DNA of 64,000 nt. Source: Sphingopyxis sp. OAS728 (GTDB taxonomy: Bacteria; Pseudomonadota; Alphaproteobacteria; Sphingomonadales; Sphingomonadaceae). Both the position numbers and the translations under genes were made by a program. The notes under the pieces were generated by a model. That model was given only the letters and a program-made list of their open reading frames with translations. It was not told where the DNA came from and ran no database searches. Positions 37,804 through 62,131 of this stretch are shown one piece after another. The DNA lies in assembly GCF_014873485.1 (NCBI RefSeq), contig NZ_JADBDT010000001.1:3776501-3840500 (forward strand), read 5' to 3'. Numbering within the stretch: position 1 is the stretch's first letter; each line of letters starts with the position of its first letter.

Positions 37804-37819
37804 CGATACCATGGTATCG
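37804..37819. promoter_or_regulatory. Perfect 16-bp dyad upstream of kinase 1
   Basis: CGATACCATGGTATCG is a perfect palindrome centred 87 bp before the proposed kinase start at 37899. It is the best copy of the GATAC-N4-GTATC element repeated across 37-62 kb. The form resembles STY/TOD boxes bound by StyR/TodT, FixJ-like regulators. Confidence 0.75.
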
Positions 37820-37898
37820 ATGGCGCTTGACTCTGTTACAGAGCATTCTGCCAATTCGCTCCTGATAGCGGCAATCGGTCTGTGGACGGCGGTGGGAT

Positions 37899-40730
37899 TT
37901 GGGAAGAGCATCTAGCCTGCAGGACGGCGCGCAGCCGGAGGTACAGCTTTACTCGCTGGAAACGAGTGCGATGGCGCTGATGGAAGCGATGCCGGGCCTC
38001 GTCGCGATGCTGGCGCCCGATGGCAGCGTGCAGCGGGTAAACGGGCAGATCCAGGAATATTGCGGGGAGACGCTCGAAGAGCTTCGAAACTGGGGTACGA
38101 ACGGGATCGTCCACCCCGACGACATGGGCCATGTGGGCGAGATATTCAGCCGGTCGATGGCGGCGGGCACGTCCTACGAGATCGAACAACGGTTGCGCCG
38201 GTTCGATGGCGTGTATCGCTGGTTCCAAAATCGCGGCCTCCCGATGCGCGCCGAAGACGGGCGCGTGATCGCCTGGTATGTGCTGTTGATCGACATCGAC
38301 GACCGGAAAAATACCGAACAGGCGCTGGCGGCCAGCGAGCATGAACTGCAGGTCACGATCGATTCCATTCCGGGCCTGGCATGGACTGCGCGCACCGACG
38401 GCACCGGCGACTTTTTCAATCGCCATTACCTCGACTATACAGGGCTGTCGCACGACGAACTCTGCGATTGGCAATGGACCCAGAGGATCCACCCCGACGA
38501 TCTGCATGCCATCACCGGTGGTTGGGAGGGCTTTCGGGAGGCCGGGACGCCGGGCGTGGTCGAAGCGCGGATCGAGCGCCACGACGGTGTCTATCGTTGG
38601 TTTTCCTTCCACGCGAGCCCGCTCCGCGATCCTGCCGGGCACATCGTGAAATGGTATGGCGTCAACGTCGATATCGAGGACCGCAAACGCGCCACGCTGA
38701 TGCTCGCGGGCGAACACGAACTGCTCGAACTGATCGCGTCGGGCAAACCGCTAGACACGATATTGGGCAAGCTTTGTGAGGTCGTCGAGCAGATTTTGCC
38801 GTCCTGTCACTGCGAGGTACGGACGATCGGCGGCGACGGTCGGACTTTCGAATATGGCGTGGCGCCGAACCTTCCTGAAGCGTTGGTCGGGGCAGTCACG
38901 GGGGTCGCTGTGGACCGGGCGATGTCACCTTGCGGCATGGCCGTGCTCGATGTGCGCCAAGTCGTCGTGGAGGATGTCGCCAGCGATTGGCGCTGGAAAG
39001 GCTCGCCTTTACAGGATCGCCTGCAACAGAGCGATTTGCGCGCGGTGTGGAGCACGCCGATCCTCGCGGGCGAGGCCCGGGTGCTCGGCACGGTCTGCAT
39101 CTACCGGCCGTTCGCATCGACGCCGCAAGCCGACGATCAGGACATCATCGGGCGCGCCGTTCATATCGCGAGCATCGCGATCGAGCGCGCGCGCGACGAC
39201 GAGGCTTTGCGGGCCGGCGCGGCGCGGCTGCGCGAAGCGCACCAGCATTTGAGTCAGGCGCAGCGGCTCAGTCGGACGGGCAGTTTCACGACCGACGTCA
39301 GGGCGGATACGCATATCTGGTCGGAAGAATTATACGAGATACTGGAATTCGATCGCGACGAGGCGCCGAGTTTTGCGGCCTTCCGGAAATGCATCCATGC
39401 GGAGGATGTCGGCCGGTTCGATGCCGGTTTCGAACGGTCGATAACGGGCCGCGCGGAGTTCGATCATGTGTTTCGCGTGGTGACGCCGAGGGGCAACACC
39501 AAATATCTCCACGCCGTCGCGCAATTCATCTCCGAAAGCGAGAAGCGGCCGATCGTCGTCGGATCGATCCAGGATATTACCGAAAGCAAGCGGATCGAAA
39601 ATGAGCTGCGGCGAAGCGCAAATTATCTATCGGCCGGCGAACGCGTCAGCCTGTCGGGGTCGTTCGCCTGGGACATCGCGACCGACAAGATCGTCTATTC
39701 CGAACAATTCGCGCGGCTGAACGAATTCGACGACCGGGATGGGCTGACCGCCGACGATTTTCGCAGCCGCTTTCATCCCGACGATGTGCCGATCTTCGAG
39801 CGCGAGGTCGCGAAGCTGCTCCACGGTGCAGATCATATCGAATATGATCTGCGGCACCTGATGCCTGACGGGCGCATCAAATATTTTCACGTCTTCGCGC
39901 AGATGGTCGAACAGTCCGACGGCCGCAGGGAATGCGTTGGCGCGGTGCAGGATGTCACGCGAAACCGCACGGCGGAGCAGGCGCTCGACAAGGTCCGGTC
40001 CGAGCTCGCCCATGTGACGCGGGTCATGACGCTGGGTGAATTGGCGGCGTCGATCGCGCACGAGGTGAGCCAGCCGCTGTCGGGGATCATCACCAATACC
40101 AGCGCCTGCCTCCGTCTGCTTGGCGTCGAGCCGCCCAATGTGGAGGGGGCGAAACGAACGGCGCAGCGGACGTTGCGCGACGGAAACCGGGCATCCGAGG
40201 TGCTCGCGCGGCTGAGGGCGCTCTTCAGCAAGCGGGATTTTGTCGTCGAGCCTTTGGACCTCAACGAGGCCGCGCTGGAAGTCCTCGCCATCTCGGCCCA
40301 CGACCTCCAGCGGAGGGGTATATTGGTGCTGACGGAGCTCGATGACGAGCTCCCGCCGGTTGCCGGAGATCGCGTCCAGTTGCAGCAGGTCATCCTCAAC
40401 CTGATACTGAACGCGGCGGACGCGATGGAGGGTGTCGAGGGGAGGGCGCGGCGGCTGTCGATCGCGACCAGCCGGGCGGCGGGCATGGCTTGCCTGCGCA
40501 TCAGCGACACGGGTCCGGGGCTGGGCGAGGAAGAGGCACGCCGGGTCTTCGACGCCTTTTTCACCACCAAGACGAACGGGATGGGGATCGGGCTTTCGGT
40601 CAGCCGCGCGATTGTCGAACGGCATGGCGGGAAGTTGCTCGCCTCGGCTAACGAGGATTTCGGCACGACATTCTCTTTCTCGGTTCCGCTTGCCGCATTG
40701 TCGGCGCTCGACACACGGCGAAACGGCTAA
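37899..40730 (+). CDS. PAS/GAF hybrid-sensor histidine kinase (kinase 1)
   Basis: Cytosolic sensor kinase of 943 residues with no clear membrane helix. The order is PAS (about 25-145), PAS (150-270), GAF (275-430), PAS (450-570), PAS (575-700), HisKA with H721 in ASIAHEVSQPLSGI, then an HATPase with VILNLILNAADAM, DTGPGLG and GMGIGLSVSRAI. There is no receiver domain. The start is TTG 37899 (GGTGGGAT upstream); ATG 37971 is an alternative. A TonB receptor gene begins 3 bp after the stop, so the two are one operon. Paralogues lie at 46900-48963 and 53806-56202. Its partner is probably the two-regulator cassette at 52.7-53.8 kb. Confidence 0.9.
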   Translation: MGRASSLQDGAQPEVQLYSLETSAMALMEAMPGLVAMLAPDGSVQRVNGQIQEYCGETLEELRNWGTNGIVHPDDMGHVGEIFSRSMAAGTSYEIEQRLRRFDGVYRWFQNRGLPMRAEDGRVIAWYVLLIDIDDRKNTEQALAASEHELQVTIDSIPGLAWTARTDGTGDFFNRHYLDYTGLSHDELCDWQWTQRIHPDDLHAITGGWEGFREAGTPGVVEARIERHDGVYRWFSFHASPLRDPAGHIVKWYGVNVDIEDRKRATLMLAGEHELLELIASGKPLDTILGKLCEVVEQILPSCHCEVRTIGGDGRTFEYGVAPNLPEALVGAVTGVAVDRAMSPCGMAVLDVRQVVVEDVASDWRWKGSPLQDRLQQSDLRAVWSTPILAGEARVLGTVCIYRPFASTPQADDQDIIGRAVHIASIAIERARDDEALRAGAARLREAHQHLSQAQRLSRTGSFTTDVRADTHIWSEELYEILEFDRDEAPSFAAFRKCIHAEDVGRFDAGFERSITGRAEFDHVFRVVTPRGNTKYLHAVAQFISESEKRPIVVGSIQDITESKRIENELRRSANYLSAGERVSLSGSFAWDIATDKIVYSEQFARLNEFDDRDGLTADDFRSRFHPDDVPIFEREVAKLLHGADHIEYDLRHLMPDGRIKYFHVFAQMVEQSDGRRECVGAVQDVTRNRTAEQALDKVRSELAHVTRVMTLGELAASIAHEVSQPLSGIITNTSACLRLLGVEPPNVEGAKRTAQRTLRDGNRASEVLARLRALFSKRDFVVEPLDLNEAALEVLAISAHDLQRRGILVLTELDDELPPVAGDRVQLQQVILNLILNAADAMEGVEGRARRLSIATSRAAGMACLRISDTGPGLGEEEARRVFDAFFTTKTNGMGIGLSVSRAIVERHGGKLLASANEDFGTTFSFSVPLAALSALDTRRNG

Positions 40731-40733
40731 ACC

Positions 40734-43079: not shown

Positions 43080-43085
43080 GTTCGG

Positions 43086-43595
43086 CTAGCAGCCGGTGGG
43101 CTGTTGCGCGCCGTCGCCATGGCAACGCGGATCGTCTTCCTTGTCCAGATATTCGATGCCGAGTGGCCCGGTGCCGGTGACCTGGGTAATATATTCACCC
43201 GACTGCGCCCAATGGAAATGGGGCGTATTGTGCGGCAGGATGACGACGCTTCCCGGGCCATAGGTCTGGAGCTTGGTAGGGTCGAAGGTCGTCCCGAAGC
43301 CGATGTAGAAGACCCCCGAAATCACCGTGTAAATCCGGTCTTCCGGGTGGATATGCGGCATCAGCTTGACCCCGCCGGGCACCTTGACGCGCACGGCATA
43401 GGGCGCGTGTTGGGCGGGATCGCCGACGACCTTTGCCAGCTCGGCGCCCGGTGGAAACGCGGCGAAGGGTTCGAAGCGAATATCCTCGGATCGTACCGAT
43501 CCGATCTCCGTCGGGGACAGGCTCTGCGCCGATGCGGATGGTGCCGAACACATGATGCAGGCCATGGCGATCTTGATGGGGGAGGAGCGGCGCAT
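43086..43595 (-). CDS. Secreted cupin
   Basis: 169 residues with a signal peptide (1-23, ending SASA) and one cupin barrel. Motif 1 is HIHPEDRIYTVISGVFYIG and motif 2 PHNTPHFHWAQSGEY, with several His suited to metal binding. Domain position 50-150. It lies 6 bp after the DJ-1-type gene on the same strand, so the two are one operon, preceded by the dyads at 44367-44399. ChrR-like or dioxygenase-like roles are possible; none is shown. Confidence 0.82.
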   Translation of the reverse strand: MRRSSPIKIAMACIMCSAPSASAQSLSPTEIGSVRSEDIRFEPFAAFPPGAELAKVVGDPAQHAPYAVRVKVPGGVKLMPHIHPEDRIYTVISGVFYIGFGTTFDPTKLQTYGPGSVVILPHNTPHFHWAQSGEYITQVTGTGPLGIEYLDKEDDPRCHGDGAQQPTGC

Positions 43596-43601
43596 CGATG
43601 C

Positions 43602-44306
43602 TCAGGCGGCGCCCGCGACAGGGGCCGCCATCGCCGTCAGCAGCTTGACCAGCGCTTCGGCGCCCGCCGTCGACGAGGCAGGATTCTGTCCGGTGATGAG
43701 CCGGCCGTCGGTGATGGCAAAGCTTTCCCAGTCGGCCGCCTTTTCGTACAGGCCACCGAGGCGGACGAGTTCATCCTCGACGAGGAAGGGGACGACCTCG
43801 GTCAGGCCAACGGCCTCTTCTTCGCTGTTTGCAAAGCCGGTCACGCGCTTGCCCTTTACCAGCGGCTGTCCCTCGAACATCACCTGCCGCAGCACGCCCG
43901 GCGCATGGCAGACGGCGGCGACGGGCTTCCCGGCGTTGTAGAACGCCTCGATCAGCGCGATGGAATCGGGGTTGTCCGCAAGGTCCCACATCGGGCCATG
44001 GCCGCCGGGATAGAAGATCGCGTCATAATCCTCGGCGCGGGCATCCTCCAGCTTGCCGGTGTTCGCAAAGACCTTTTGCGCATCGGCATCCTGTTTGAAG
44101 CGCGTCATTGCGGGGGTCTGGTTTTCGGGCAGGTCGCTCTTGGGATCGACCGGCGGTTGTCCGCCCTTGGGCGAGACGAGGGTGAGGTCCACGCCCGCAT
44201 CGCGGAACACATAATAGGGGGCGGCACCCTCCTCGAGCCAGAAGCCCGTCTTGCGCCCCGTGTCGCCGAGCGTGTCGTGCGAGGTGAAAACCATCAAGAT
44301 GCGCAT
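43602..44306 (-). CDS. DJ-1/PfpI family protein (Hsp31-like)
   Basis: 234 residues of the class-I glutamine-amidotransferase-like fold. The nucleophile is C133 in AVCHAPG with neighbouring H134, and an acidic partner is in FWLEEGAAPYY (E25-E26). This matches the Hsp31/glyoxalase-III type rather than true amidotransferases. Likely roles are detoxification of reactive carbonyls or chaperone-like protection. It is first in an operon with the cupin. Tandem dyads lie 60-93 bp upstream. Confidence 0.88.
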   Translation of the reverse strand: MRILMVFTSHDTLGDTGRKTGFWLEEGAAPYYVFRDAGVDLTLVSPKGGQPPVDPKSDLPENQTPAMTRFKQDADAQKVFANTGKLEDARAEDYDAIFYPGGHGPMWDLADNPDSIALIEAFYNAGKPVAAVCHAPGVLRQVMFEGQPLVKGKRVTGFANSEEEAVGLTEVVPFLVEDELVRLGGLYEKAADWESFAITDGRLITGQNPASSTAGAEALVKLLTAMAAPVAGAA

Positions 44307-44366: not shown

Positions 44367-44382
44367 TCAGACATTGGTATCG
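44367..44382. promoter_or_regulatory. Degenerate dyad upstream of DJ-1/cupin operon (1)
   Basis: TCAGACATTGGTATCG carries one good half-site (GGTATCG). It is in tandem with the better copy at 44384-44399, 17 bp centre to centre, a phased arrangement also seen at 56333/56349. Confidence 0.45.
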
Positions 44383-44383
44383 C

Positions 44384-44399
44384 CAAGACCATGGTATCG
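44384..44399. promoter_or_regulatory. Dyad upstream of DJ-1/cupin operon (2)
   Basis: CAAGACCATGGTATCG matches the perfect dyad at 37804 in 14 of 16 positions. Its centre is 85 bp upstream of the DJ-1-type start at 44306. A further half-site GGTATCG is at 44406-44412. Confidence 0.62.
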
Positions 44400-46899: not shown

Positions 46900-48963
46900 C
46901 TATGCGCCGTCCTTCGACGCTACGGGTAGCGAAAAGACGAGGGTGGTGCCGGGCCCCTCGTTGGACATTGCCCAGAGCTTCCCCTTGTGACGGTCGATGA
47001 TCGAACGGCTCACTGACAGGCCGATGCCCATGCCATGCGGCTTCGTCGTATGAAAAGGTTCAAAAATTCGTTCACGATCTTCCTTGGCGATGCCGGTTCC
47101 TGTGTCGCGGACCATCAGCTGTACCCGTCCGGTTTGGTGCTGCACCGAAAGGATGGATATCTGGCGGGGGCGGTCATCGACGGCGGAAAGCGCATCGGCT
47201 GCGTTCAGGACGAGATTCAGGATCACCTGTTGCAGTTGGATGCGGTCACCGGTCACGTGGGGCAGTTCGTTGTCCAGATCGACGGTCATCGCGATGCGCC
47301 GGCGCTGCAGGTCATGTGCACAGATTGCGATGACCTCTCGCGCTGCGTCGTTGAGGTCGAGCAATTCGAGAGCAAAATCCTGTTTTCGATAGAGGCTACG
47401 GAGGCGTTTGATGACTTCTGCGGCCCGGTTTCCATCCCGGACGCTTCGTTCTGCCGTTCGAATTGCGCCTTCGATATTGGGCGGGTCGGTCGCGAGCATC
47501 CGCAGGCATGTGTTGGCGTTGGTGATAATGCCCGACAGCGGCTGGTTCACTTCGTGCGCTATCGAGGCTGCAAGTTCTCCGAGGCTGAGCACCCGGGTAA
47601 CGTGGGCCAACTCGGATCGTAATTTTTCCGAAGCTTGTTCTGCCAGGCGCCGTTTCGTGATGTCTTGCGAGACGCCGACACACTCCACTCGTCCGTCTTC
47701 ATGGTGAAAGACCAGGGTTGAATTGCTCATCCATTTGATACGCCCGTCGGGCATGAGGATGCGTTCCTCATTTTCCGGATTGTCCAGCCCCTGCCGCATA
47801 CGATCGACCCGTCCCTGAACCATCGCGGCATCGTCCGGGTGCACCATAGGCATCAGATTGTTGGGGCCGAGCGGAAGGCTCGGGTCGATTTCCCAGATGC
47901 GGTACATCTGTTCGGACCAGATCAGCTTGTCATGGACAAGGTCCTACGAGAAGGAACCTGTCTCGCTTATCCGTTCTGCCGTAACCAACAAAAACTGGCG
48001 TCGTTTCAATTCATTCTCTGCACGATAACGTTCGATCGCAATGCTGGAGATATGAACGGCGCGCTGAATGATGTCCTGATGTTCGGGACGAAATTCGCCC
48101 GTTTCAGAGCGATAAACACATAGCGAGCCGAGTATCCCACCGTCCTTGGACGAGATCGGGACGCCGCAAGCCGACCTCAGCCCCTCATCCAATAGGCGCT
48201 TCTGAACATCCGTGTTTTGCCAACGGGGATCTGTAGCGATGTTTTTGGCGATTATAGTGGTCTTGTGTGCAGCGGCGCGTCCGGCGGGAGACATATCGTC
48301 AGCGAGAGGTGTGCCGGGCACGCTTTCGATGAGCTTGCATGATAATGTCGGCGCGACCGCGATTTCATAGACGGTCCCCGTCGCGTCGAGCGTGCGGATT
48401 TCGCATGGGCAATCAGGAGCCGCCTGTTCGATGACCTCGCACAACGCGACAAGGATGTCGCGGATTGGCCTGCTCGATGCGACGAGTTCGAGCAGCCGCC
48501 GCTCGCCGGCCAGCATGATCGCGGTGCGCTTCTGATCCTCTATATCGATGTTGACGCCATACCATTGGGCGATCTTTCCGTCGGCGCCCGGCGATGCGCT
48601 CGAACGGAAGGAAAACCAGCGATAGACACCGTCGTGGCGGCGAAGGCGCGCCTCGATTTCGCCGCCGCTTCCGGCTGCGTTGAAGGCCTCCCAGCAAGCC
48701 ATCACGCGATCTACGTCGTCGGGATGGACCACGCTCGTCCATTGCCACCCCTCGAGTTGCCCGGCCGAAAGGCCGACATAGTCGAGATAGCGGCGGTTGA
48801 AGAAATTCCCGGTCCCGTCGGCACGGGCCGACCAGGCCATTGCGGGGATGGAGTCGACGACGCGTTGAAGGTCCCGTTCGTTCTCCGTTGGCGGTGCCGA
48901 CAGCGATGCGGCCGCGCTTCGCGAAGCACGGGCACTGCGTCCCTCGGCGCCATTCTTGCTCAT
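46900..48963 (-). pseudogene. PAS/GAF histidine kinase 2 split by an in-frame amber codon
   Basis: Conceptual product of 687 codons with PAS (about 25-150), GAF (about 155-330), PAS (about 330-445), HisKA (H470 in ASIAHEVNQPLSGI) and HATPase (GMGIGLSVSRSI). Codon 340 is TAG (47944-47946), between SETGSFS and DLVHDKLIWSE. No frame change occurs: both sides stay in register and align with kinases 1 and 3, where this position is Thr and Trp. A single TGG-to-TAG change would explain it. The downstream part has an ATG at 47907 that could give a 335-residue kinase core. The start ATG is 48963; 48984 is possible. Confidence 0.85.
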
Positions 48964-49029
48964 ATGCGCTCCCGCAGCCAACAAGCAGCACAGGGTCTAC
49001 CCATGCCGTGCCGAGGGCGGAAGCACTAT

Positions 49030-49045
49030 CGAGACGAAAGTATCA
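49030..49045. promoter_or_regulatory. Dyad upstream of kinase 2
   Basis: On the minus strand it reads TGATACTTTCGTCTCG, with 9 of 10 arm positions of GATAC-N4-GTATC. Its centre is about 75 bp before the kinase 2 start and it overlaps the flavin reductase stop codon. The 15-base core is identical to that at 49722-49736. Confidence 0.65.
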
Positions 49046-49630: not shown

Positions 49631-49720
49631 GGACGCTGATCCTGTGGCGACACATAGCGTGCCGGGAGCAGGCGGATATCGGCCCCGAGCAAGGGACAGC
49701 CCATTGGACGAAGGTATTGC

Positions 49721-49736
49721 GGATACTTTCGTCTCG
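49721..49736. promoter_or_regulatory. Dyad between flavin reductase and MFS genes
   Basis: GGATACTTTCGTCTCG matches 9 of 10 arm positions. It lies about 98 bp upstream of the reductase start and 107 bp upstream of the MFS start, so it could serve both. A weaker half-site, TAATACCATCGTGCAA, is at 49760-49775. Confidence 0.62.
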
Positions 49737-49835
49737 TCGCACCCGACTATCGGCCCGCGTAATACCATCGTGCAATTGAGCGGTCGGGGCGGGCCGTCGA
49801 TGTCGCGCGCCTCCCGACGTTAAACCGGATTGCCC

Positions 49836-51076: not shown

Positions 51077-51913
51077 TCAGCTCTCCGCGCTGTCCACGAA
51101 ACGGCCGAGCTCGCGTTCGACGTCGGAGCGGGTCTGGAGCCCCATGCCGATCAGCCGCGCCATGCGTTCGCGCGTTTCCGGGCGCGCCGTCGAGACGAAG
51201 AATTGGTCGAGCGCTGGCGGGAAAACGCCGTCATCGGGCAGCGAGAGCTGATCGACGAAGCGCTTTGTCTCGGCGAGTGCGTATTTTTCGAAGCCGGCGA
51301 GACGGCGCGCGAAGCGGTCGACGAACCAGTCGAGTTCGGCGTCGGGTATGGCGCGGTTGACATAGCCGTAGCGCTCGGCGAGCTCGGCGGGGAAATCGTC
51401 GGCGCCAAGCACGACCTCGAGCGCCCGGCCGCGACCGACCAAATGCGCGAGCCGTGCCATCGGGTTTGCGCCGGGAACTGCGCCGACGCCCACCTCGAAC
51501 TGGCCGAGGATCGCCTTTTCAAGGCTCGCGAATCGCATGTCGCAGGCGAGCGCGAACTCGCTGCCTGCCCCGCGCGCGCGGCCGCGGATCATCGCGATCG
51601 AAGCAACCGGGGCGCGACTTAGACGCGCCAGAACGTCGAGCCAGGGATGCATGCCGGTGGGGCCCTTGGGCATCGCGGCGGTCCGGGCCTTGTCCACGAG
51701 CACGTCGTAGTGGGCGAGGAAATAGTCGGGGTCTTCGCTGGCGAAGACGACGACCTTGACGTCGGGGTCCGTCTCCATCTGCGCAATCAACCGGTCAAGC
51801 TCGCCGATCGTGTCGGGGTCGATCAGGTTGATCGGCGGGTTCGAAAAGGTCGCGTGCCAATAGCCGGGCGCGGGATATTCGAGGCGGATCTGCTGGGTCA
51901 TGTTCTGGCTCAT
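51077..51913 (-). CDS. Enoyl-CoA hydratase/isomerase family protein
   Basis: Crotonase-fold protein of 278 residues. The oxyanion-hole and catalytic regions are visible: MIRGRARGAGSEFALACD and AILGQFEVGVGAVPG, with both Glu residues used by hydratases (in GSEFAL and GQFEV). The N-terminal half has an unusual HYDVLVDKA stretch, so the CoA substrate may differ from short fatty acyl chains. The ATG at 51913 overlaps the stop of the small kinase gene (ATGA), an odd operon partner. Confidence 0.85.
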   Translation of the reverse strand: MSQNMTQQIRLEYPAPGYWHATFSNPPINLIDPDTIGELDRLIAQMETDPDVKVVVFASEDPDYFLAHYDVLVDKARTAAMPKGPTGMHPWLDVLARLSRAPVASIAMIRGRARGAGSEFALACDMRFASLEKAILGQFEVGVGAVPGANPMARLAHLVGRGRALEVVLGADDFPAELAERYGYVNRAIPDAELDWFVDRFARRLAGFEKYALAETKRFVDQLSLPDDGVFPPALDQFFVSTARPETRERMARLIGMGLQTRSDVERELGRFVDSAES

Positions 51914-52599
51914 TGCGCGGCGAGCACATTCCAGACGGCCGATGCTGCCGTTGCCTCGACGATCGGGACGGCGTCCGCAGCGGGAAAATGGACCACGGCG
52001 AAATTGCCGCGTCGCGTGAACGACCAACGGACGGCGCCGCCAATCTCCCGCACGAGCGAGCGGACGAGCCTCTGTCCGCGGCCGGGCGCGCTGTCCCTTT
52101 CGGACCGGCCGCTGTCGCTGACGAGACAGAGGATATAGCTGCCTTCGTCGGTGATCCGAACATCGATCAGTCCCGGCTTGCCCTTGAGGCCGTGCCGCGC
52201 CGCGTTGCGGAGCAGCTCGGCCACGATCAGTCCGATCCGCCAGCCGCGATCAGCGGGCACCCGGATATCGTCGGCCTTCAGGATCAGGTGGATGTTGCGA
52301 TCGGACAGGGTCGCACGGGTATATGCGCCGCAGATCGCTGCGATATGGTCGGCAAGATTGACCGCAGCGTCGATAGCCGGTGCCGACAACGCGCGATGCG
52401 CTTCGGCGTGATCGCGGAGGCGGTCCGCGACGCCCCGCAATGTATCGCGCACGCTGCCGCCGGCGCGAGCGGCGGCAATCGAAAGCATCGCGATTGCCTC
52501 GGCATATTCGTTGATGACGCGGTGGTTGATCTCTTCGACCAGATTGAGCGACGCGGGGAGCGCGCCTGTACCATTCATCGCAAAACCATGTTCCAGCAT
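51910..52599 (-). CDS. Small HisKA_2-type histidine kinase without sensor domain
   Basis: 229 residues. The dimerisation/phosphoacceptor part has H26 in LVEEINHRVINEYAEAIAML, the HisKA_2 pattern, and the ATPase part has IGLIVAELLRNAARHGLKG, VSDSGR and a compact G2 region. No PAS, GAF or membrane part is present. The ATG at 52599 has GGAG upstream. It follows the two response regulators by 89 bp with its own dyad and overlaps the enoyl-CoA hydratase gene. It may act as a partner or phosphatase for the nearby regulators, which is inference. Confidence 0.8.
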   Translation of the reverse strand: MLEHGFAMNGTGALPASLNLVEEINHRVINEYAEAIAMLSIAAARAGGSVRDTLRGVADRLRDHAEAHRALSAPAIDAAVNLADHIAAICGAYTRATLSDRNIHLILKADDIRVPADRGWRIGLIVAELLRNAARHGLKGKPGLIDVRITDEGSYILCLVSDSGRSERDSAPGRGQRLVRSLVREIGGAVRWSFTRRGNFAVVHFPAADAVPIVEATAASAVWNVLAAQ

Positions 52600-52675
52600 G
52601 ACCGGTCTCCTGCATTGCTCGTTGCAGGGATTAGGTCAGGAAAGTCTCATTCGCGCCATTGAACCTTGGTGTAGC

Positions 52676-52691
52676 GCATACCTTTGTATCA
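52676..52691. promoter_or_regulatory. Dyad upstream of the small kinase gene
   Basis: GCATACCTTTGTATCA matches 9 of 10 arm positions of GATAC-N4-GTATC. Its centre is 85 bp upstream of the start at 52599 and it overlaps the stop codon of the FixJ-like regulator gene. Confidence 0.62.
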
Positions 52692-53375
52692 GTTGGTCCG
52701 GCTATCCCGTGGCGGCGGCATCTCGAGGTCGAGCCGCTCGCTCATCTTGACGAGGTCGGCGAAGGATCCCGCCGACATTTTCTCCATGACGCGGCCGCGG
52801 TGTGCCTTGACCGTGATTTCGCTGATGCCGAGTTCCCAGCCGACCTGCTTGTTGAGCAGCCCCGAGACAACCAGCGCCATCACCTGCCGCTCGCGCGGAC
52901 TGAGCGACGCGTAGCAACGCTGGACGCCATCGAGATCGGCTTTCTCTTCGACGGCGGTGCGGCTCGTCTCGACGGCACGCTCGACGGCGGACAACAGCAC
53001 ATCCTCGTTCAGCGGCTTGGTCAGGAACTCGGCCGCGCCCGCCTTCATCGCGCGCACCGTCATCGGAATGTCGCCATAGCCTGTGATAAAGATGATCGGC
53101 ATTTCGGGGCGATCGCCCGCGATGCGCTCCTGAATGTCGAGGCCGTTGAGGTCGGGGAGGCTGACGTCGAGGATCAGGCACGCCGGGCCCGGCGGGGGCG
53201 TCCACGCGAGAAATTCGGTCGCCGAACCAAAGCCGCGCACTTTCATGCCCGCGGCGTCGAGCAGTGCTTCAAGCCCTTCGCGTGTCGAGAGGTCGTCGTC
53301 GACGACGATCACCATGGGGCGGGTGTCCAGCATGGCGTGCGGTCCATTCCTGAGGGTGGTGCTGTAATTTAACAT
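52689..53375 (-). CDS. FixJ/StyR-like response regulator (receiver + LuxR HTH)
   Basis: Response regulator of 228 residues. The receiver (about 20-135) has the acidic triad VVDDD, phospho-acceptor D70 in LILDVSLP, and K in FLTKPL. A LuxR-type HTH (about 160-220) has LSPRERQVMALVVSGLLNKQ and ISEITVKAHRGRVMEKM. The start ATG 53375 has GGAGG 6 bases upstream; ATG 53333 would give 214 residues. It lies 11 bp after the single-receiver gene. I propose it as the protein that binds the GATAC-N4-GTATC dyads, because FixJ-type regulators such as StyR and TodT bind sites of the same geometry. Confidence 0.93.
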   Translation of the reverse strand: MLNYSTTLRNGPHAMLDTRPMVIVVDDDLSTREGLEALLDAAGMKVRGFGSATEFLAWTPPPGPACLILDVSLPDLNGLDIQERIAGDRPEMPIIFITGYGDIPMTVRAMKAGAAEFLTKPLNEDVLLSAVERAVETSRTAVEEKADLDGVQRCYASLSPRERQVMALVVSGLLNKQVGWELGISEITVKAHRGRVMEKMSAGSFADLVKMSERLDLEMPPPRDSRTN

Positions 53376-53386: not shown

Positions 53387-53770
53387 CTATGCATCGGGGT
53401 TTTTCCGGGCGAGCGCGGTACGCACGGCATCGACGATCGCGCTCTCGCTGAATGGCTTGACGAGGCAGGCCACCGCACCGCTTCGCAGCAGCACCGGCCA
53501 TATGCCGTCGTGCGAATGGGCGGTGATGAAGACGATCGGAAGATTTCGTTCCTGCCGGATCAGTTCCTGCTGCAGTTCGGGGCCGGTCATTTCGGGCATC
53601 GCAACGTCGAGCACGAGGCAGCCGACCTCATGCGCATCGTCGAAGCCCAGAAAGTCGGCCGCCGACGAGAAGGCCCGGGTTCGGAATCCAAAGGATTCCA
53701 GCAGGTCGGGAAGCGATTCCCGAACCGATTCATCATCATCCACGACCGCGATTATCTTGTCATTCAACAT
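53387..53770 (-). CDS. Single-domain response regulator (CheY-like)
   Basis: 127-residue receiver with no output domain. It has VVDDDESVRESL, D55 in LVLDVAMPEMTG and K105 in CLVKPF. FixJ-like hydrophobic positions suggest it derives from the receiver of a two-domain regulator. I start it at ATG 53770; 53809 would overlap kinase 3. It lies between kinase 3 and the FixJ-like gene. Likely roles are a phosphate sink or relay tuning the FixJ-like partner. Confidence 0.92.
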   Translation of the reverse strand: MLNDKIIAVVDDDESVRESLPDLLESFGFRTRAFSSAADFLGFDDAHEVGCLVLDVAMPEMTGPELQQELIRQERNLPIVFITAHSHDGIWPVLLRSGAVACLVKPFSESAIVDAVRTALARKNPDA

Positions 53771-53805: not shown

Positions 53806-56202
53806 TCAATTTATCGTGACGACATTCCTCTCCCTCTCCAGTCCCCGCTCATGGATCGGCATGGCGAAAGCGAACGTCGCGCCATGCCCGTCGTTGCGGG
53901 CGGCGGTCAGGCGCCCGCCGTGGTTCTCGACGATCGAACGGCTGATCGCGAGCCCGACCCCCATCCCGTGCGGCTTTGTCGTGTAAAAGGCGTCGAACAG
54001 CTTGTCGGCGCCCTGATCGTCGAGCCCGATGCCGGAATCGCGAACCGCCAGCCGGACACCGTTGTGCTCGGTCTCGGTCGTTGACAGGAACAGGCTTCGC
54101 GAGCGGTCGTTCACCTCTCTCATCGCGTCGAGCGCGTTGAGGATCAGGTTGAGCACGACCTGCTGGATTTGCACGCGGTCGCCCATCACCAACGGCGTGC
54201 CCGGCATGAAATCATGCCGGAGTATCGCGCCGCCGCTTCGAATTTCGGTGTTGCAGAGGGCGAGAACCTCGCGAACCGCATCGTGCAGGTCGACGGGCTC
54301 GAAACGATAAGGATCGGCGGCGAACATCGCGCGCAGGCGCTTGATGACCTCCGACGCACGATTGCCGTCGCGGATCGTGCGCTCGGCGGTAGCGCGTGCC
54401 TTGTCGATATCGGGCGGGTCCGCTGCGAGCAGGCGAAGGCAGGCGCTGCTGTTGGTGATGATGCCCGACAAGGGTTGGCTTACCTCATGCGCGATCGAGG
54501 CGGTGAGCGCGCCAAGCGTCGATACGCGGGCCAGGCGCGTGAGCTCCGAGCGTGCATGATCGAGTGCCTCCTCGGTCAGCTTGCGCGCGGTGATGTCCTG
54601 TATCGCGCCCATGAAAATCGGCCGGTCGGTGACATGGTCGATGCGGCGTCCGACGACATGGGCATATTTCATCTTGCCGCTTGCCGGGACGAGACGGAAG
54701 GCGAGCTCGAAATCGTCACCGCCTGCGGCCTCGGTAAGCAGCCTCTCGACTTCGGGCAGATCGTCGGGATGAACTGCCGCGAGTATTCTCTCGAGCGTGA
54801 TATCGGAGGCGGGATCGAATTCGAAAATGCGGTAATTCTCTTCCGACCAGATATGCTCGTTTCGCTCGACGTCCCAGGTGAAGCTGGCGGTCAGCGTCAG
54901 CCGCTGCGTTTCGACGAGGAAACGGTTGGTGCGTTGCAGGTCCTCGCTGGTTTGCTTCAATGCTGCATCCGCCTGCGTTCGTTCGATCGCCAGCGACGCG
55001 ATGTTGACGAAACGGTCGACCAGCCTTTGCTCGAGCGACGTCGGACCGGCCGCCTTCTGCTTATAGAGTGCGAAGACGCCGATCACCTGGCCGGCACTCG
55101 ACGATATCGGCGTCGACCAGCAGGATCGAAAGCCGATCGATTCCATGAGCGGCGGCCAGGACGAGCCAGCCCAACGCTGATCGGTCAACGGATTCGACGT
55201 AATGATCGGCGTGTTGCTAATCGCTGCGAGCGAGCAGGGGCCATAGCCGGGGTCGATGGCCTTTCCGTCGAAAAGCCGATTGTAGCTGTCGGGCAGGCTC
55301 GGCCCAGCACCGGGCCAGAAGCAAAGTGCGTCGCTGTCGACTCCCAACACGCTGCAGATCGAGCCGGGTGAAATCTCCTCCACCACCTTGCAAAGCGTGT
55401 CGAGAACCTCTCCCAGAGCACGACCCTGTGCGACCATGCGGAGGAGTTCGACCTCTCCGGTCAACAGATGCTCAGCCTTCTTCAGATCATCGATGTCGTT
55501 GCGGATGGAAACATATCGTACGACGTTCCCTGCGGCGTCTGTCGATGGGACGATGATCGATTGGAACCACCGGTACAGTCCATCCTTCCCCAGCAGGCGG
55601 CCCTGGTTAACATAAGGCGGACCGCCAGCGAGCATCTCTCCGAGCATTTGGAGGCCGGGACCGATATCGTCAGGATGGACGACCTGCGTCGTACGCCATT
55701 TGGTCAAATCTTCGAAGCTCTGACCATAATAGGCGAAGCCGTGGTCGTTCACATATTCGACCTCGCAGCGCGGGTCGAGGAACACCATATGAACCGGAAT
55801 ATTCTTGATGAAACGGCGAAGCCGCTGTTCCGAGGCGCTGCCGTGTATCGTGTCGGACCGTGCCTCGTCGGCAAATGATGCGATGCCGCACCAGCGGTTC
55901 TCGCCATCGTCCATCGGCGCAAAGCGAAGTAGGAACCAGCGATATTCGCCGTCGGTGCGTTGCAGCCGCACCTCAATTTCGCCTTGGCCGGCGGCTTCAT
56001 GCGCCGATCGAAAAGCCGATTGAAACATCGCAATGTCGGCAGGATGAATCACCGATTCCAGCCCTTCCTGCCGAAGTCTCTCCAATGTTCGGCCCGTGTA
56101 TTCGAGCCAGCGATTATTCACATAGTCGATGCCGTCATCGGCGTTCATGGTCCAAACCAAGCCCGGCAACGCGTCCATCACGCGGCTGAAGTCGGTTTTC
56201 AT
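53806..56202 (-). CDS. PAS/GAF histidine kinase 3
   Basis: Cytosolic sensor kinase of 798 residues: PAS (about 5-120), PAS (125-245), GAF (255-410), PAS (425-545), HisKA with H572 in ASIAHEVSQPLSGI, and HATPase with VVLNLILNALDAM, DSGIGLD and GMGVGLAISRSI. No membrane helices are seen. The ATG at 56202 has AGGAAG upstream. It is followed by the single-receiver gene (35-bp gap) and the FixJ-like regulator, forming the only kinase-regulator operon in the window. It is paralogous to kinases 1 and 2 over the GAF, last PAS and catalytic parts. Confidence 0.93.
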   Translation of the reverse strand: MKTDFSRVMDALPGLVWTMNADDGIDYVNNRWLEYTGRTLERLRQEGLESVIHPADIAMFQSAFRSAHEAAGQGEIEVRLQRTDGEYRWFLLRFAPMDDGENRWCGIASFADEARSDTIHGSASEQRLRRFIKNIPVHMVFLDPRCEVEYVNDHGFAYYGQSFEDLTKWRTTQVVHPDDIGPGLQMLGEMLAGGPPYVNQGRLLGKDGLYRWFQSIIVPSTDAAGNVVRYVSIRNDIDDLKKAEHLLTGEVELLRMVAQGRALGEVLDTLCKVVEEISPGSICSVLGVDSDALCFWPGAGPSLPDSYNRLFDGKAIDPGYGPCSLAAISNTPIITSNPLTDQRWAGSSWPPLMESIGFRSCWSTPISSSAGQVIGVFALYKQKAAGPTSLEQRLVDRFVNIASLAIERTQADAALKQTSEDLQRTNRFLVETQRLTLTASFTWDVERNEHIWSEENYRIFEFDPASDITLERILAAVHPDDLPEVERLLTEAAGGDDFELAFRLVPASGKMKYAHVVGRRIDHVTDRPIFMGAIQDITARKLTEEALDHARSELTRLARVSTLGALTASIAHEVSQPLSGIITNSSACLRLLAADPPDIDKARATAERTIRDGNRASEVIKRLRAMFAADPYRFEPVDLHDAVREVLALCNTEIRSGGAILRHDFMPGTPLVMGDRVQIQQVVLNLILNALDAMREVNDRSRSLFLSTTETEHNGVRLAVRDSGIGLDDQGADKLFDAFYTTKPHGMGVGLAISRSIVENHGGRLTAARNDGHGATFAFAMPIHERGLERERNVVTIN

Positions 56203-56260: not shown

Positions 56261-56276
56261 TGATACTTTGGTGTCG
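56261..56276. promoter_or_regulatory. Dyad upstream of kinase 3
   Basis: TGATACTTTGGTGTCG matches 9 of 10 arm positions. Its centre is 67 bp before the kinase 3 start, suggesting feedback control of the kinase-regulator operon. Confidence 0.65.
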
Positions 56277-56332: not shown

Positions 56333-56348
56333 CGATACCAACGTGTCA
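56333..56348. promoter_or_regulatory. Dyad in the kinase 3/LysR region, first of a pair
   Basis: CGATACCAACGTGTCA matches 9 of 10 arm positions. It is 16 bp centre to centre from the weaker copy that follows, similar to the 17-bp spacing at 44367/44384. Confidence 0.6.
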
Positions 56349-56364
56349 CCATACCATCGTCCAA
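56349..56364. promoter_or_regulatory. Dyad in the kinase 3/LysR region, second of a pair
   Basis: CCATACCATCGTCCAA has one good half-site and one poor one. It is credible mainly because of its phasing with the copy at 56333. Confidence 0.4.
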
Positions 56365-56577
56365 TGGCGAAGCGCTGAGGCCCACCCCCATTCTCTGCCC
56401 GAACGCCGGAATAATCGCGGCGGCGGAGGAACGGTCATGACCCGCGTGGAAGCAGCCGGAGGTTTTCTAGCGTGCGACCTAGCCAGCGTTTCGTTCGCTG
56501 CGCGGTTGAGCGGTACTCGACCCGTTCGTCCGGCTGGCCTAGCATGATCCCCGACACTCCAATCTTGCGGGCGGACC

Positions 56578-57498
56578 ATGGATCGCATCGACGCGATGAA
56601 AATCTTTGTGACGGCGGTCGACGAGGGCAGCCTCGCGGGCGCTGCGCGGCGCCTGCGCCGTTCGCCGACCGCGGTCAGCCGCGCGATCGCGTCGCTCGAG
56701 ACGCATATCGGTGCCGAACTGCTCCACCGCACGACGCGCAGCATCCGCCTGAGCGAAGCGGGGCAGCGTTATGCCGCCTCGTGCCGGCGCATTCTTGCCG
56801 AACTGGAGGAGGCCGATCTGCTCGCGGGTGGCGAACGGTCGGCGCCGCGCGGGATGCTGACGCTGTCGGCGCCGCCGATCAGCGGCGAGGAGGTGCTGCG
56901 TCCGATCCTCGACGAATTTCTCGAAGCCTATCCGCTGGTGTCGGCGCGCCTGCTACTGGTCGACCGGTCGGTACATCTGGTGGACGAGGGCGTCGATGTC
57001 GCCCTGCGCGTCGGCCAGCTTCCCGACTCCTCGCTGGTCGCGACGCGCGTCGGCGACGGGGTGCGGCGCGTGGTCGTCGCATCGCCGCGCTATCTTTGCG
57101 AGCATCCGCCGATCGAGGAGCCTGCGGATATTGCGGGGCATCAGATCGTCTCGCTGACCCATTTCGGTATCGAATCCTGGGGGTTCGGAACCGGGCCGGC
57201 GGCGCGCACCGTGCATTTCACCCCGCGGCTGGTCGTCAATACGGTCCGCGCGGCGGTGGGCTCGGCGGTCGCCGGGCGCGGGCTGACGCGCGTCTATTCC
57301 TATCATGTCGCGCGCGAGGTGAAGGACGGGCTGCTGAATATCCTGTTGCCCGAAGCCGAACCGGTGCCGCAACCGGTGCACCTGCTGGCGCCCGGCGGCC
57401 GGATGGGCGTGCCCAAGGTTCGCGCCTTCGTCGATTTCGCGACCCCGCGGCTGCGTGCGGCTTTCGCGCGGCTCGCGATCGACGCGCGCGCGCTTTAG
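56578..57498 (+). CDS. LysR-family transcriptional regulator, CrgA-like
   Basis: 306 residues. It begins MDRIDAMKIFVTAVDEGSLA, with the HTH including RRSPTAVSRAIASLETHI, and has a full effector domain ending FVDFATPRLRAA. It is similar in type to the LysR at 22259. It lies 154 bp upstream of the SDR gene on the same strand, and a perfect 7-bp inverted repeat in that gap is a candidate binding site. It probably controls the SDR-tautomerase-monooxygenase run. Confidence 0.9.
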   Translation: MDRIDAMKIFVTAVDEGSLAGAARRLRRSPTAVSRAIASLETHIGAELLHRTTRSIRLSEAGQRYAASCRRILAELEEADLLAGGERSAPRGMLTLSAPPISGEEVLRPILDEFLEAYPLVSARLLLVDRSVHLVDEGVDVALRVGQLPDSSLVATRVGDGVRRVVVASPRYLCEHPPIEEPADIAGHQIVSLTHFGIESWGFGTGPAARTVHFTPRLVVNTVRAAVGSAVAGRGLTRVYSYHVAREVKDGLLNILLPEAEPVPQPVHLLAPGGRMGVPKVRAFVDFATPRLRAAFARLAIDARAL

Positions 57499-57519
57499 CC
57501 GAAACATTATCCCGATATC

Positions 57520-57536
57520 CGGCAGAATGTCTGCCG
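57520..57536. promoter_or_regulatory. Inverted repeat, candidate LysR site
   Basis: CGGCAGA and TCTGCCG flank ATG in a perfect dyad, 117 bp before the SDR start and 22 bp after the LysR stop. The size and position fit a LysR-type operator. Confidence 0.45.
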
Positions 57537-57652
57537 AACTCGGCGGATTATATCCCGATACCGCCTGACCTACCTTGCTCCCGTCGGCGCATGGCGCGCC
57601 ACACGGGCGAGCCTTTCTCGACCCGTCGTCACTCAAGCAAAGGTCCAATATC

Positions 57653-58363: not shown

Positions 58364-58387
58364 TCCGATCAGCCAAGGAGAAAGACC

Positions 58388-58624
58388 ATGCCTATCATCA
58401 CCGTCCAATTGACCCGTGAAGGCACCGAACCCGGTGTCGATCATGTGACCGCGGAACAGAAGGCCGCGATCTACAAGGGGATGAGCCAGGTCCTGCTCGA
58501 CGTGCTCGGAAAGCCGCTCGACTGGACATGGGTTATCTTCCAGGAAGTCGAGATGGAAGATTGGGGCTGGGGCGGTATGCCCGTCGCCGAGTATCGCAAG
58601 AAGCTCGCGGCAGCCTCCGGCTGA
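58388..58624 (+). CDS. 4-oxalocrotonate tautomerase family protein
   Basis: 78-residue small tautomerase. Pro2 becomes the N-terminal catalytic proline after Met removal (MPIITVQL). The middle has [21 protein letters not shown] and the end [14 protein letters not shown]. It is slightly longer than classical 62-residue 4-OT, like PptA/YdcE-type members. The AAGGAGAAAGACC ribosome site is clear. It lies between the SDR and nitronate monooxygenase genes, suggesting an enol/keto step on a shared substrate. Confidence 0.88.
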
Positions 58625-58644
58625 ACCTTTCGACCTTGGAGACG

Positions 58645-59718: not shown

Positions 59719-59732
59719 CAGGAGCTGACAAT

Positions 59733-60221
59733 ATGGACGATTTCGGCGAAGCCTTTGCCGCGCTCGGCGATCTGCGCGGGCGCCCGCTTTTCGTGATGAA
59801 GGTCGGTGTCGACCATATCCATGCGATCGGCGGACCAGCCGGAATCGACCGGCGCGTCGGCGAAATGGTCGCAGGGCGTTTCGCGGGCGAGCGCCTGTCG
59901 GGCGATGTCCTGACCGGCGGCGCCGACTGGCAGATCGTGCGCGCCGACGGCGCGGTCCTGCTCGACGCGCGCGTCGTGCTGCGCACCGACGACGGCGCCA
60001 AGATCGCGATGGAATATACGGGCATCCGTACCGGGCCGGCCGACGTCATCGCGCGGTTGGGGCGGGGCGAGCCGGTCGATCCCGCCGACTATTATTTCCG
60101 CATCGCGCCGCGCTTTTCGACGTCCGATCCGAGATACGAGTGGCTGAACCGCATTATGGCGGTCGGCATCGGTCACCGGCTGCCCGAGGGGCCGGTCTAC
60201 AGCGTGTTCGAGATTGCCTGA
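59733..60221 (+). CDS. DUF3237 family protein
   Basis: 162 residues resembling the DUF3237 family: an N-terminal strand after FVMKVGVDHIHAIGGPAG, then SGDVLTGGADWQIVRADG, then a sheet ending DYYFRIAPRFSTSDPRYEWLN. The family forms a lipocalin-like barrel and has no settled function. It starts at ATG 59733 with AGGAG; a GTG at 59715 would overlap the preceding stop. It is the last gene of the run that starts with the SDR and is convergent with msrB. Confidence 0.82.
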   Translation: MDDFGEAFAALGDLRGRPLFVMKVGVDHIHAIGGPAGIDRRVGEMVAGRFAGERLSGDVLTGGADWQIVRADGAVLLDARVVLRTDDGAKIAMEYTGIRTGPADVIARLGRGEPVDPADYYFRIAPRFSTSDPRYEWLNRIMAVGIGHRLPEGPVYSVFEIA

Positions 60222-60233
60222 GGGCGGCGGGAG

Positions 60234-60707
60234 CTATCCCCGCCAAACCAGCCCTTCGGGCGCGCCGCGGCCGAGCCGGTCGGGGAGCGTCTCGCCGGTG
60301 GCGACGAACTCGAGCGAGCCGCTGTTGATGCAATAGCGCAGCCCCGTGGGTGGCGGTCCGTCGGGGAAGACATGCCCCTGATGCGATCCGCAGCGCGCGC
60401 AGACGATCTCGGCACGGACCATGCCGTAGCGCCTGTCCTCGATCGTCTGCAGATGATCGGCGCTGAACGGCGTCGTGAAGCTCGGCCAGCCGGTGCCGCT
60501 TTCGAACTTGGCGCCGGCGCGGAACAGCGGCAGGCCGCAAAGGCGGCAGCAATAGACGCCTTCGCGCTTTTCATAGAGGAAGAGGCCGCAAAAGGGGGCT
60601 TCCTCCGCATGGTCGAGGAGGAGGCTGCGCTCCTCATCGGTGAGCGCGGCGGCGAGGTCGTGCCGTTGCTGTCGCGTCGGCGGCGCCAGGTCGAAGCCTT
60701 CAGCCAC
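60234..60707 (-). CDS. msrB: Peptide methionine (R)-S-oxide reductase, zinc form
   Basis: Second MsrB of the window, 157 residues. The zinc site is complete: C54 and C57 (CRLCG) and C103 and C106 (CARCG). The catalytic Cys is C126 in RYCINSGS. The usual resolving position is GTGWPSF, so it needs another Cys or thioredoxin directly. The start is GTG 60707, overlapping the alpha/beta hydrolase stop by 8 bp. The longer frame to 60884 is a shadow. It is coupled to an exported hydrolase, an odd partner for a cytoplasmic repair enzyme. Confidence 0.92.
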   Translation of the reverse strand: MAEGFDLAPPTRQQRHDLAAALTDEERSLLLDHAEEAPFCGLFLYEKREGVYCCRLCGLPLFRAGAKFESGTGWPSFTTPFSADHLQTIEDRRYGMVRAEIVCARCGSHQGHVFPDGPPPTGLRYCINSGSLEFVATGETLPDRLGRGAPEGLVWRG

Positions 60708-61752
60708 GCGTGACGTCCAGCACCGCCTGCGCAAAGGCTTGCGGCGCTTCCTGCGGCAGGTTGTGGCCGATGCCGCCGCTGATGTCGCGATGCTCGTAGC
60801 GACCCGTGAACTTGGCGCGATAGGCGGCGGGCGGCGGGTGCGGTGCGCCATTGGCGTCGCCTTCCATCGTGATCGTCGGGACACCGATCGTCGGCGCGGC
60901 CGCGATCTGGCGGTCGAGGTCGGCGTAGCGCGCTTCGCCGTCGGCCAGCGCCAAACGCCAGCGATAATTGTGGATCACGATGTCGACATGGTCGGGATTG
61001 TCGAAGGACGCTGCGCTGCGGGCGTAGGTGGCTTCGTCGAAATTCCATTGGGGCGAGGCGAGCTTCCAGATCAGCCGGTTGAAGTCCTTGCGGTTCTTGT
61101 CGTAGCCGAGGCGGCCGCGCTCGGTCGCAAAATAATATTGATACCACCATTGCAGTTCGGCCTCGGGCGGCAGCGGCGCCTTGCCCGCTTCCTGTCCGGC
61201 GACGAGATAGCCGCTGACCGCAACAAGGCCGGTCGTGCGTTCGGGCCAGATCGCAGCGACGATGTCGGCAGTGCGCGCGCCCCAGTCGAAACCCGCCAGC
61301 ACGGCGCGCTTGATCTTCAGTGCGTCCATGAAGTCGATCAGGTCCTGCGCCAGCGCGGCAGGCTGTCCGTTGCGGAGGCTGTCGGCCGACAGGAAGCGCG
61401 TCGGGCCATAACCGCGCAGATAGGGGATGAGGACGCGATAGCCCTTCGCGGCCAGCAGCGGCGCGACATCGGCGAAGCTGTAGATATCATAGGGCCAGCC
61501 GTGCAGCAGGATCGCGACCGGGCCCTTGGCGGGGCCCATGTCGATGTAGGAAATATTGAGGAGACCCGCGTCGACTGACTTGAGCGGTGGGAAAGCTCCG
61601 CCGGTCGGGGGTGCAGTCTGGGCGCTTGCCGGCTGCGGTGCTGCACCGGCGCTCGCAAGGCTCAGTCCGAGCTGCGCGGCGACGGCGACGCCGGTGATGC
61701 CGAGAAATTGCCGGCGGTCCGACAGGCCCTGTTCGAAAGCGGAAAGCTGCAC
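60700..61752 (-). CDS. Tat-exported alpha/beta hydrolase with Asp nucleophile
   Basis: 350 residues. The N-terminus has a Tat motif SDRRQFLG (11-18), then a hydrophobic stretch ending near PASAQ. The hydrolase fold has the oxyanion HGWP (84-87) and a nucleophile elbow GFDWGA with D156 in place of Ser, as in epoxide hydrolases and haloalkane dehalogenases. The catalytic His is probably in GIGHNLP. The start is GTG 61752. msrB overlaps its end. The dyad at 61970 lies 226 bp upstream. Confidence 0.87.
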   Translation of the reverse strand: MQLSAFEQGLSDRRQFLGITGVAVAAQLGLSLASAGAAPQPASAQTAPPTGGAFPPLKSVDAGLLNISYIDMGPAKGPVAILLHGWPYDIYSFADVAPLLAAKGYRVLIPYLRGYGPTRFLSADSLRNGQPAALAQDLIDFMDALKIKRAVLAGFDWGARTADIVAAIWPERTTGLVAVSGYLVAGQEAGKAPLPPEAELQWWYQYYFATERGRLGYDKNRKDFNRLIWKLASPQWNFDEATYARSAASFDNPDHVDIVIHNYRWRLALADGEARYADLDRQIAAAPTIGVPTITMEGDANGAPHPPPAAYRAKFTGRYEHRDISGGIGHNLPQEAPQAFAQAVLDVTRG

Positions 61753-62131
61753 GTCGTCATACCCCTTTGTCTGGGCCAATCGGGCCGGAAGTGGGACGCG
61801 GACGGACTGGGCGGGGGGAGGGAGTGGAGTCCGTCCGCGTCCTCTGCCCGGCGTGGCCAGCGGGCGCCACACCGGGAATTCGCTCTAGTCGGTCATCCGG
61901 TTACATCGGCGCCCGACACGGCCAATATTGCGGGGCTTCGACGGCAAATCGATTATACGTTTGTGTTGTCGACACCATCGTATCGATAGTCGTTGCACGC
62001 CTTTTGCCAGAAGCGGGCCGCCGACACCAAAGTTCAATAACGGCGTCAGAGACGCCTTCCTATCTCGCCTTGCAGGCTCGGTACGCGCCACCCGTGCACC
62101 GACGCCGCCCCCTCCGGCAAAGGATAGAGAC
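61753..62131. other. Gene-free divergent promoter region
   Basis: 379 bases between the Tat-exported hydrolase and the gene at 62132. It holds one copy of the dyad at 61970-61985. I see no other motif I can support and no convincing gene. Confidence 0.45.
61970..61985. promoter_or_regulatory. Dyad in the hydrolase region
   Basis: CGACACCATCGTATCG matches 9 of 10 arm positions and differs from the perfect copy at 37804 in two bases. It lies 154 bp before the gene at 62132. Confidence 0.58.

Follow-up and report, generated by a model that had tools for sequence, protein, structure and literature searches.

Systems that pair a FixJ/NarL-type regulator with neighboring PAS kinases are known for styrene in Pseudomonas (StyS/StyR) and for toluene (TodS/TodT and TmoS/TmoT). 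In excerpts of published work, the StyR-like operator is given as ATAAACN4GTTTAT and the StyR residues K175, V176 and H179 are named (PMC5874301). Excerpts of a further article state that StyR activates from a site at about -40 (STY2), and that it represses when it occupies two sites, probably by looping the DNA (PMC2442086). A palindrome, GGTGTTCGCACC, was proposed as an operator upstream of the -35 for TdiS/TdiR of Azoarcus (anaerobic toluene), as given in an excerpt of its description.

The locus described here lies in a stretch of 64,000 nucleotides from Sphingopyxis sp. OAS728 (the window), and its features are listed in Table 1. As in the styrene and toluene systems, a FixJ/NarL-type regulator is encoded beside PAS kinases, and as in the StyR/TodT group (to the extent of the excerpts) there are dyads with an AC-N4-GT core. 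However, the operator here is GATAC-N4-GTATC instead of ATAAACN4GTTTAT, and the AC-N4-GT core alone is common. The positions of StyR K175, V176 and H179, the residues named in the excerpt (PMC5874301), read K, A and G, with only the lysine kept. Unlike StyS and TodS, the kinases here have no receiver domain according to Pfam, and the locus further differs from StyS/StyR and TodS/TodT by its 17-bp step between dyads and its lone REC protein. The regulator would work like StyR, yet we do not place it in the StyR/TodT group, given its operator and helix letters. It has the REC plus LuxR/GerE helix-turn-helix arrangement of FixJ-type regulators (Pfam Response_reg 4.2e-27, GerE 8.8e-19). The best NCBIfam models are FixJ for the regulator and FixL for kinase 2, but both scores are below the curated cut-offs (199.3 of 255 bits for FixJ and 224.8 of 850 bits for FixL), and by this equivalog cut-off the protein is not FixJ sensu stricto. 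The locus shares with TdiS/TdiR the two-component arrangement and a palindrome, although the letters of the palindromes differ. We found no published report of these operator letters or of this gene set among open-licence PMC articles.

We propose, with a probability of roughly 0.85, that the FixJ/StyR-type regulator uses the dyads as its operators, and that it would act as a class II activator at promoters of two layouts and receive input from several kinases. The genes for kinase 2, the receiver protein and the regulator are on the same strand and presumably form one operon. Other neighbors assigned by Pfam include two TonB receptors, FMN reductase, an MFS protein, an enoyl-CoA hydratase-like protein, SDR, nitronate monooxygenase, DUF3237 and isochorismatase.

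Table 1. Genes and dyads of the proposed regulon, with window positions.
Feature	Position	Strand	Basis and remarks
Single dyad before PAS/GAF histidine kinase 1	37805..37818	+	GATACCATGGTATC, 10/10 arm bases
PAS-GAF histidine kinase 1	37899..40730	+	Pfam PAS_3, GAF_2, HATPase_c; HisKA slightly below cut-off
Cupin, weak match, after DJ-1 gene	43086-43595	-	Pfam
DJ-1/PfpI-family protein, first gene behind 44368/44385 dyads	43602..44306	-	Pfam
Proximal dyad, DJ-1 gene	44368..44381	-	Exactly 17 bp from 44385
Distal dyad, DJ-1 gene	44385..44398	-	Dyad scan
Third kinase, split by one in-frame stop	46900..48984	-	Pfam; stop is residue 347 of frame; pieces PAS-GAF 47944-48984 and PAS-HisKA-HATPase 46900-47907
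Single dyad before third kinase	49031..49044	-	Dyad scan
Proximal dyad with GTCCAATGG, FMN-reductase promoter	49705..49718	-	Exact composite match 49701-49717; 17 bp from 49722
Distal dyad common to divergent FMN-reductase and MFS promoters	49722..49735	.	Dyad scan
Proximal dyad with GTGCAATTG, MFS promoter	49761..49774	+	Exact composite match 49762-49778
Small HisKA_2-type kinase	51910..52599	-	Pfam HisKA_2, HATPase_c_2
Proximal dyad with GTTCAATGG, small kinase	52660..52673	-	Exact composite match 52656-52672
Distal dyad, small kinase	52677..52690	-	Dyad scan
FixJ/StyR-type response regulator, proposed dyad binder	52689..53375	-	Pfam Response_reg and GerE; closest solved chain StyR 1yio, E 1.3e-54
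Single-domain receiver protein (lone REC)	53387..53770	-	Pfam Response_reg
PAS-GAF histidine kinase 2, first gene of presumed kinase-REC-regulator operon	53806..56202	-	Pfam
Single dyad before kinase-REC-regulator operon (presumed autoregulation)	56262..56275	-	Dyad scan
Distal dyad, LysR side	56334..56347	+	Dyad scan
Proximal dyad with GTCCAATGG, LysR side	56350..56363	+	Exact composite match 56351-56367; 16 bp from 56334
LysR-type protein	56578-57498		Pfam
Alpha/beta hydrolase, epoxide-hydrolase-like	60700..61872	-	Closest solved chain 5bov (putative epoxide hydrolase), E 8.3e-134
Proximal dyad, hydrolase	61954..61967	-	17 bp from 61971; composite match 61950-61966 with one mismatch
Distal dyad, hydrolase	61971..61984	-	Dyad scan; GACACCATCGTATC present in G005 too

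Nine dyads were reported in an earlier, sequence-only reading of the window. All are real, and each starts one base further on than reported there (37805, 44368, 44385, 49031, 49722, 52677, 56262, 56334 and 61971). Conservation of 9 or 10 arm bases, claimed for most copies, holds for seven of them (10/10 in one, 9/10 in six), whereas the dyads at 44368 and 44385 keep 8/10. Positions A2, A4, C5, G10, T11 and T13 and the A/T (W-W) center are invariant in all nine. Seven sites are wholly intergenic and the other two overlap the last 2 bp of a neighboring gene, in a stretch where 2,224 of 25,060 bases are intergenic. With assumed start codons, the distance from center to gene is 53-107 bp for eight genes and 237 bp for the LysR gene, a wider range than the 67-87 bp given earlier for the kinases and the DJ-1 operon.

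The same reading had named an even spread of the motif over coding and intergenic DNA in a genome scan as one outcome that would speak against a regulon. Instead, the sites are clustered. The 4.92-Mb genome contains 41 matches to GATAC-N4-GTATC with at most one mismatch, of which seven are in this 24-kb region, compared to about 0.2 per 24 kb expected by arithmetic for an even spread. These seven are the only such sites in the window (all within 37.8-62.0 kb), and positions 1-36000 have none. Six of the eight mismatch-free copies of GANACNWWNGTNTC in the genome also fall in this region. Among intergenic patterns of the region, GATAC-N4-GTATC ranks first of 10,240 palindromes of varied arm and spacer (5 seen, 0.05 expected), and it likewise comes first in the intergenic DNA of 12 stretches that surround close regulator relatives (12 seen, 0.3 expected). 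The dyad signal is thus one of clustering and intergenic placement, not of genome-wide count.

Other measures speak against an excess of the motif or were set aside. Ranking palindromes over coding and intergenic DNA by base composition was uninformative (GATAC-N4 was 39th in the window region, behind CG-rich palindromes, and 141st in the 12 related stretches), and the intergenic ranking was used instead. Sites with two mismatches are close to chance in number (21 in the window, 16.05 expected; 14 of 100 shuffles reach 21). The genome-wide total of the loose pattern GANACNWWNGTNTC was rejected as evidence, as eight copies is ordinary (79 other genomes of the genus hold 1-11). The strict palindrome GATACNWWNGTATC was rejected as a marker; it is present in none of 35 other same-genus genomes, including the one with a 70% identical regulator (G005), while genomes from other families of the order hold up to five copies.

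Many of the dyads are part of a composite element. The earlier description overlooked the second dyad, shifted by 17 bp, and the promoter elements joined to it, as well as the continuation of the cluster beyond the window. A search around 35 strong sites gave 12 counts of a second dyad scoring >5 at 17 bp (10 distinct pairs), and no more than three at any other offset from 8 to 119. Oriented alignment gives the order towards the gene as distal GATAC-N4-GTATC, 3 or 4 bp, and proximal (G/A)AYACC-WW-nGTnCAATnG. The proximal dyad ends in GTnCAATnG, and an extended -10-like sequence then follows at a fixed distance. An alternative in which TTGnAC of the proximal dyad is a -35 on the opposite strand was dropped; in the oriented alignment it is the weak dyad that adjoins the gene. 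Of 11 promoters with a single dyad, mostly those of kinase and REC-regulator genes, 10 share a C at +26 after the dyad; the 11 were picked by hand and include several orthologs.

The genome has five copies of the proximal element AYACNWWNGTNCAATNG, and a span of 18 kb contains them all. The fifth is 3 kb beyond the end of the window (G000:C1:3843517, L079:3518) and has a distal dyad 39 bp before it; the cluster therefore continues beyond the window. The gene behind it encodes a second enoyl-CoA hydratase-like protein (52% identical to that of the window). A further match with one mismatch, at 62024-62040 (+), faces the isochorismatase side. In 30 genomes, AYACNWWNGTNCAATNG gave 20 matches compared to four for a reversed control; in this search the element was absent from three genomes with regulators at 51-60% identity (G085, G773 and G794). 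One of 19 control genomes (G001) has it, before an 80%-identical MFS relative. This genome is of the same genus and lacks a close regulator, and its single composite element (L080:10177) directly precedes the MFS gene. It can be read either as a relic or as a site bound by a regulator paralog of 48% identity in that genome. The proximal element was rejected as a stand-alone marker because of its background: one or more copies are found in 50 of 396 genomes of the order, and in 47 of the 393 without a regulator at E<=1e-62. At least two copies occur in only five genomes, and this genome has five.

Close relatives of the regulator are sparse, with matches at E<=1e-62 in three of 396 genomes of the order, this one counted. 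One genome of the same genus (G005) encodes a regulator at 70% identity, and regulators at 56-61% identity occur in Devosia insulae, Ancylobacter, Acidobacteriaceae and others. A matrix built from the nine window copies, a check that the sequence-only reading had suggested, was scanned on 12 stretches around close relatives, two others (Ancylobacter L033, and L046) and 12 paralog stretches; these groups did not include Cupriavidus agavae L037 or the weaker relatives L039-L043. The close-relative stretches contain 17 sites scoring >16, whereas permuted matrices that preserve the palindrome average 0.16 and none of 300 reaches this number. No site >14 was found in the paralog stretches, nor in L033 or L046. 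The dyad thus recurs beside close regulator relatives in sphingomonads, Devosia and Acidobacteria. A relative of the lone receiver adjoins the regulator in most of the dyad-bearing related loci, where gene calls are crude and target names rest on Pfam or BLAST matches. This receiver may serve as a relay or as a phosphate sink.

There are departures from this pattern. In C. agavae the regulator is only 46% identical and has a TVKI helix, yet two sites score 16.5 within 10 kb of it (L037:149 and 2147); a different regulator may read the same box there. Despite 51-61% identity, no site >14 is near the regulators of Ancylobacter L033 (TVKI), G085 (TVKK) and G794 (TVKAHRA). The G773 regulator has the TVKAHRG helix, yet only one site, at 13.5.

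The association also appears when the search starts from the motif. The query GTATN{4,6}AYACNWWNGTNCAATNG gave 67 matches in 27 of 399 genomes of the class of Granulicella and none for the reversed control; two genomes (G838 and G840) were known beforehand, so that the independent yield is 25 of 397. G840 (locus L029) carries the label Betaproteobacteria, which is probably wrong, as the genome is grouped with Granulicella G838 in this class. For comparison we used the first 53 of the 372 motif-less genomes. A regulator match at E<=1e-50 was found in 21 of the 27 motif-bearing and 7 of the 53 motif-less genomes, and at E<=1e-65 in 18 and 1, respectively. Motif and regulator are within 25 kb of each other in 18 of the 27 genomes, and 47 of 66 listed motif matches are linked to a regulator (one, G1039:C81:3534, was left out of this check). 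The recognition helix TVK[A/T]HRG, read among the matches listed (at most 30 loci), is present in 19 of the 27 and in none of the 53 genomes (Fisher 1.9e-12, an optimistic value, since the A/T class was chosen after viewing the table and the genomes are related). The seven motif-less regulator matches have other helices at the loci listed. Among the eight motif-bearing genomes lacking a regulator with this helix, six have no match at E<=1e-50 and two have TVKI or TVKV. The residue at StyR position 176 largely separates dyad-linked from unlinked regulators. Together with the enrichment of the dyad beside close relatives and its absence from paralog stretches, with C. agavae as the exception, these comparative tests leave the link to the gene at 52689, which the sequence-only reading had inferred, well supported if not proven, with binding predicted.

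Alignment of 30 motif-first promoters revealed conserved columns beyond those in the query: a distal ATAC arm (0.99-1.79 bits), and a downstream TG and AT-ending hexamer. Hexamers that match TATAAT in at least four of six positions occur at one offset in 19 of the 30, and at any other offset in at most two. The extended -10-like sequence in these relatives is TGG-YTTAAT. If the hexamer is the -10, the predicted centers, by arithmetic, are near -43.5 for the proximal and near -60.5 for the distal dyad; the former compares with about -40 for the activating site of StyR.

Could the palindromes have clustered by chance or through base composition, or be a dispersed repeat, rather than operators? 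The near-chance number of two-mismatch sites and the ordinary genome total of the loose pattern would fit this, but the first intergenic rank in two data sets, the permuted-matrix controls, the 17-bp phasing and the recurrence in Acidobacteria make it barely credible. Another regulator of the cluster might bind the dyads, with the FixJ-type gene merely linked. The LysR-type protein is one candidate: its gene is inside the cluster, and G005 encodes a 92% identical relative. However, no relative of it was found among the called genes (crude calls) of six dyad-bearing loci (L029, L030, L031, L032, L034 and L035), all six of which have the REC-regulator pair, mostly with a kinase. Since the helix residue of the FixJ-type protein also largely sorts dyad-linked from unlinked regulators, we consider this explanation very improbable.

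It is also conceivable that, once bound to the dyads, the FixJ-type protein acts as a repressor or merely relays a signal to a second factor, and that the -35/-10-like geometry is coincidental. StyR represses from two occupied sites, probably with looping, in the excerpt cited above (PMC2442086), and -10-like hexamers at the expected offset are poor in the promoters of the window itself. Nevertheless, the single preferred offset of the hexamer in the motif-first promoters puts the proximal dyad near the activating STY2 position given there, and we regard repression or relay as unlikely.

If the FixJ-type protein does act as an activator at the dyads, at least one of the linked PAS/GAF kinases would feed it, and the phosphorylated regulator would dimerize. 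A dimer would occupy each GATAC-N4-GTATC, with two side by side at two-dyad promoters, and activation would be of the class II (promoter-proximal) type, in which the regulator on the proximal dyad contacts polymerase. While the sites, their geometry, their co-occurrence with the regulator and the helix correlation are read directly from the genomes, we infer the binding, its dependence on phosphorylation, activation rather than repression, the feeding kinase and the signal. In the first predicted layout, kinase and regulator operons would be served by a single dyad. In the second, used for enzyme genes and the small kinase, there would mostly be a distal dyad and a proximal dyad 17 bp nearer the gene; the latter would run into a -35-like TnG, with the extended -10-like sequence downstream. 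Besides its own kinase-REC-regulator operon, the regulator would thus activate additional kinase genes and genes for oxidoreductases and hydrolases. Predicted targets are DJ-1, cupin, FMN reductase, the enoyl-CoA hydratase-like and epoxide-hydrolase-like proteins and the MFS transporter, with a TonB receptor as a probable addition. The operator stands before the genes for kinases and regulator alike, so that several kinases probably feed the circuit and its autoregulation is probably positive.

These predictions would give an unnamed response-regulator subfamily an operator, a promoter layout and a target list. The joint change of helix residue and operator relative to StyR/TodT makes a case for sequence-based reading of FixJ-type DNA specificity, and an operator before several sensor-kinase genes would be a design for self-reinforcing, many-input signaling. 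We see an even chance that this is a separate FixJ-type module of several kinases, a lone receiver and one regulator, with its own operator code (TVKAHRG reading GATAC-N4-GTATC), that controls detoxification or catabolic genes through a strongly conserved two-dyad promoter of about 61 bp. In this reading, the promoter, the regulator and its targets would have moved together between Acidobacteria and Alphaproteobacteria by horizontal spread, and the module would amplify itself via its own input kinases.

The targets in the two phyla are in part related, at identities that would fit horizontal spread. A DJ-1 protein 71% identical to that of the window is encoded by the first gene behind a composite element in L104. 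Relatives of the window cupin (64%) and enoyl-CoA hydratase-like protein (50-53%) are encoded behind or beside motif-first elements, and a hydrolase relative (68%) is upstream of its element, not behind it. First genes could be scanned for 27 of 31 composite elements (the other four are one without an ORF and three whose short ORFs were discarded). Their Pfam assignments are SDR (4), enoyl-CoA hydratase-like (4), sigma factor (3), pyridine-nucleotide reductase (2), DJ-1 (2), glyoxalase (2) and FMN reductase (1). No ring-dioxygenase or styrene-monooxygenase match was found among the window ORFs given to Pfam. The predicted targets in the window suggest that the cell responds to, or makes use of, a small molecule that is reactive or xenobiotic. 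In Acidobacteria, some elements precede genes for ECF-type sigma factors (L034:6502-7167 and L086:1640-2356), which suggests a cascade.
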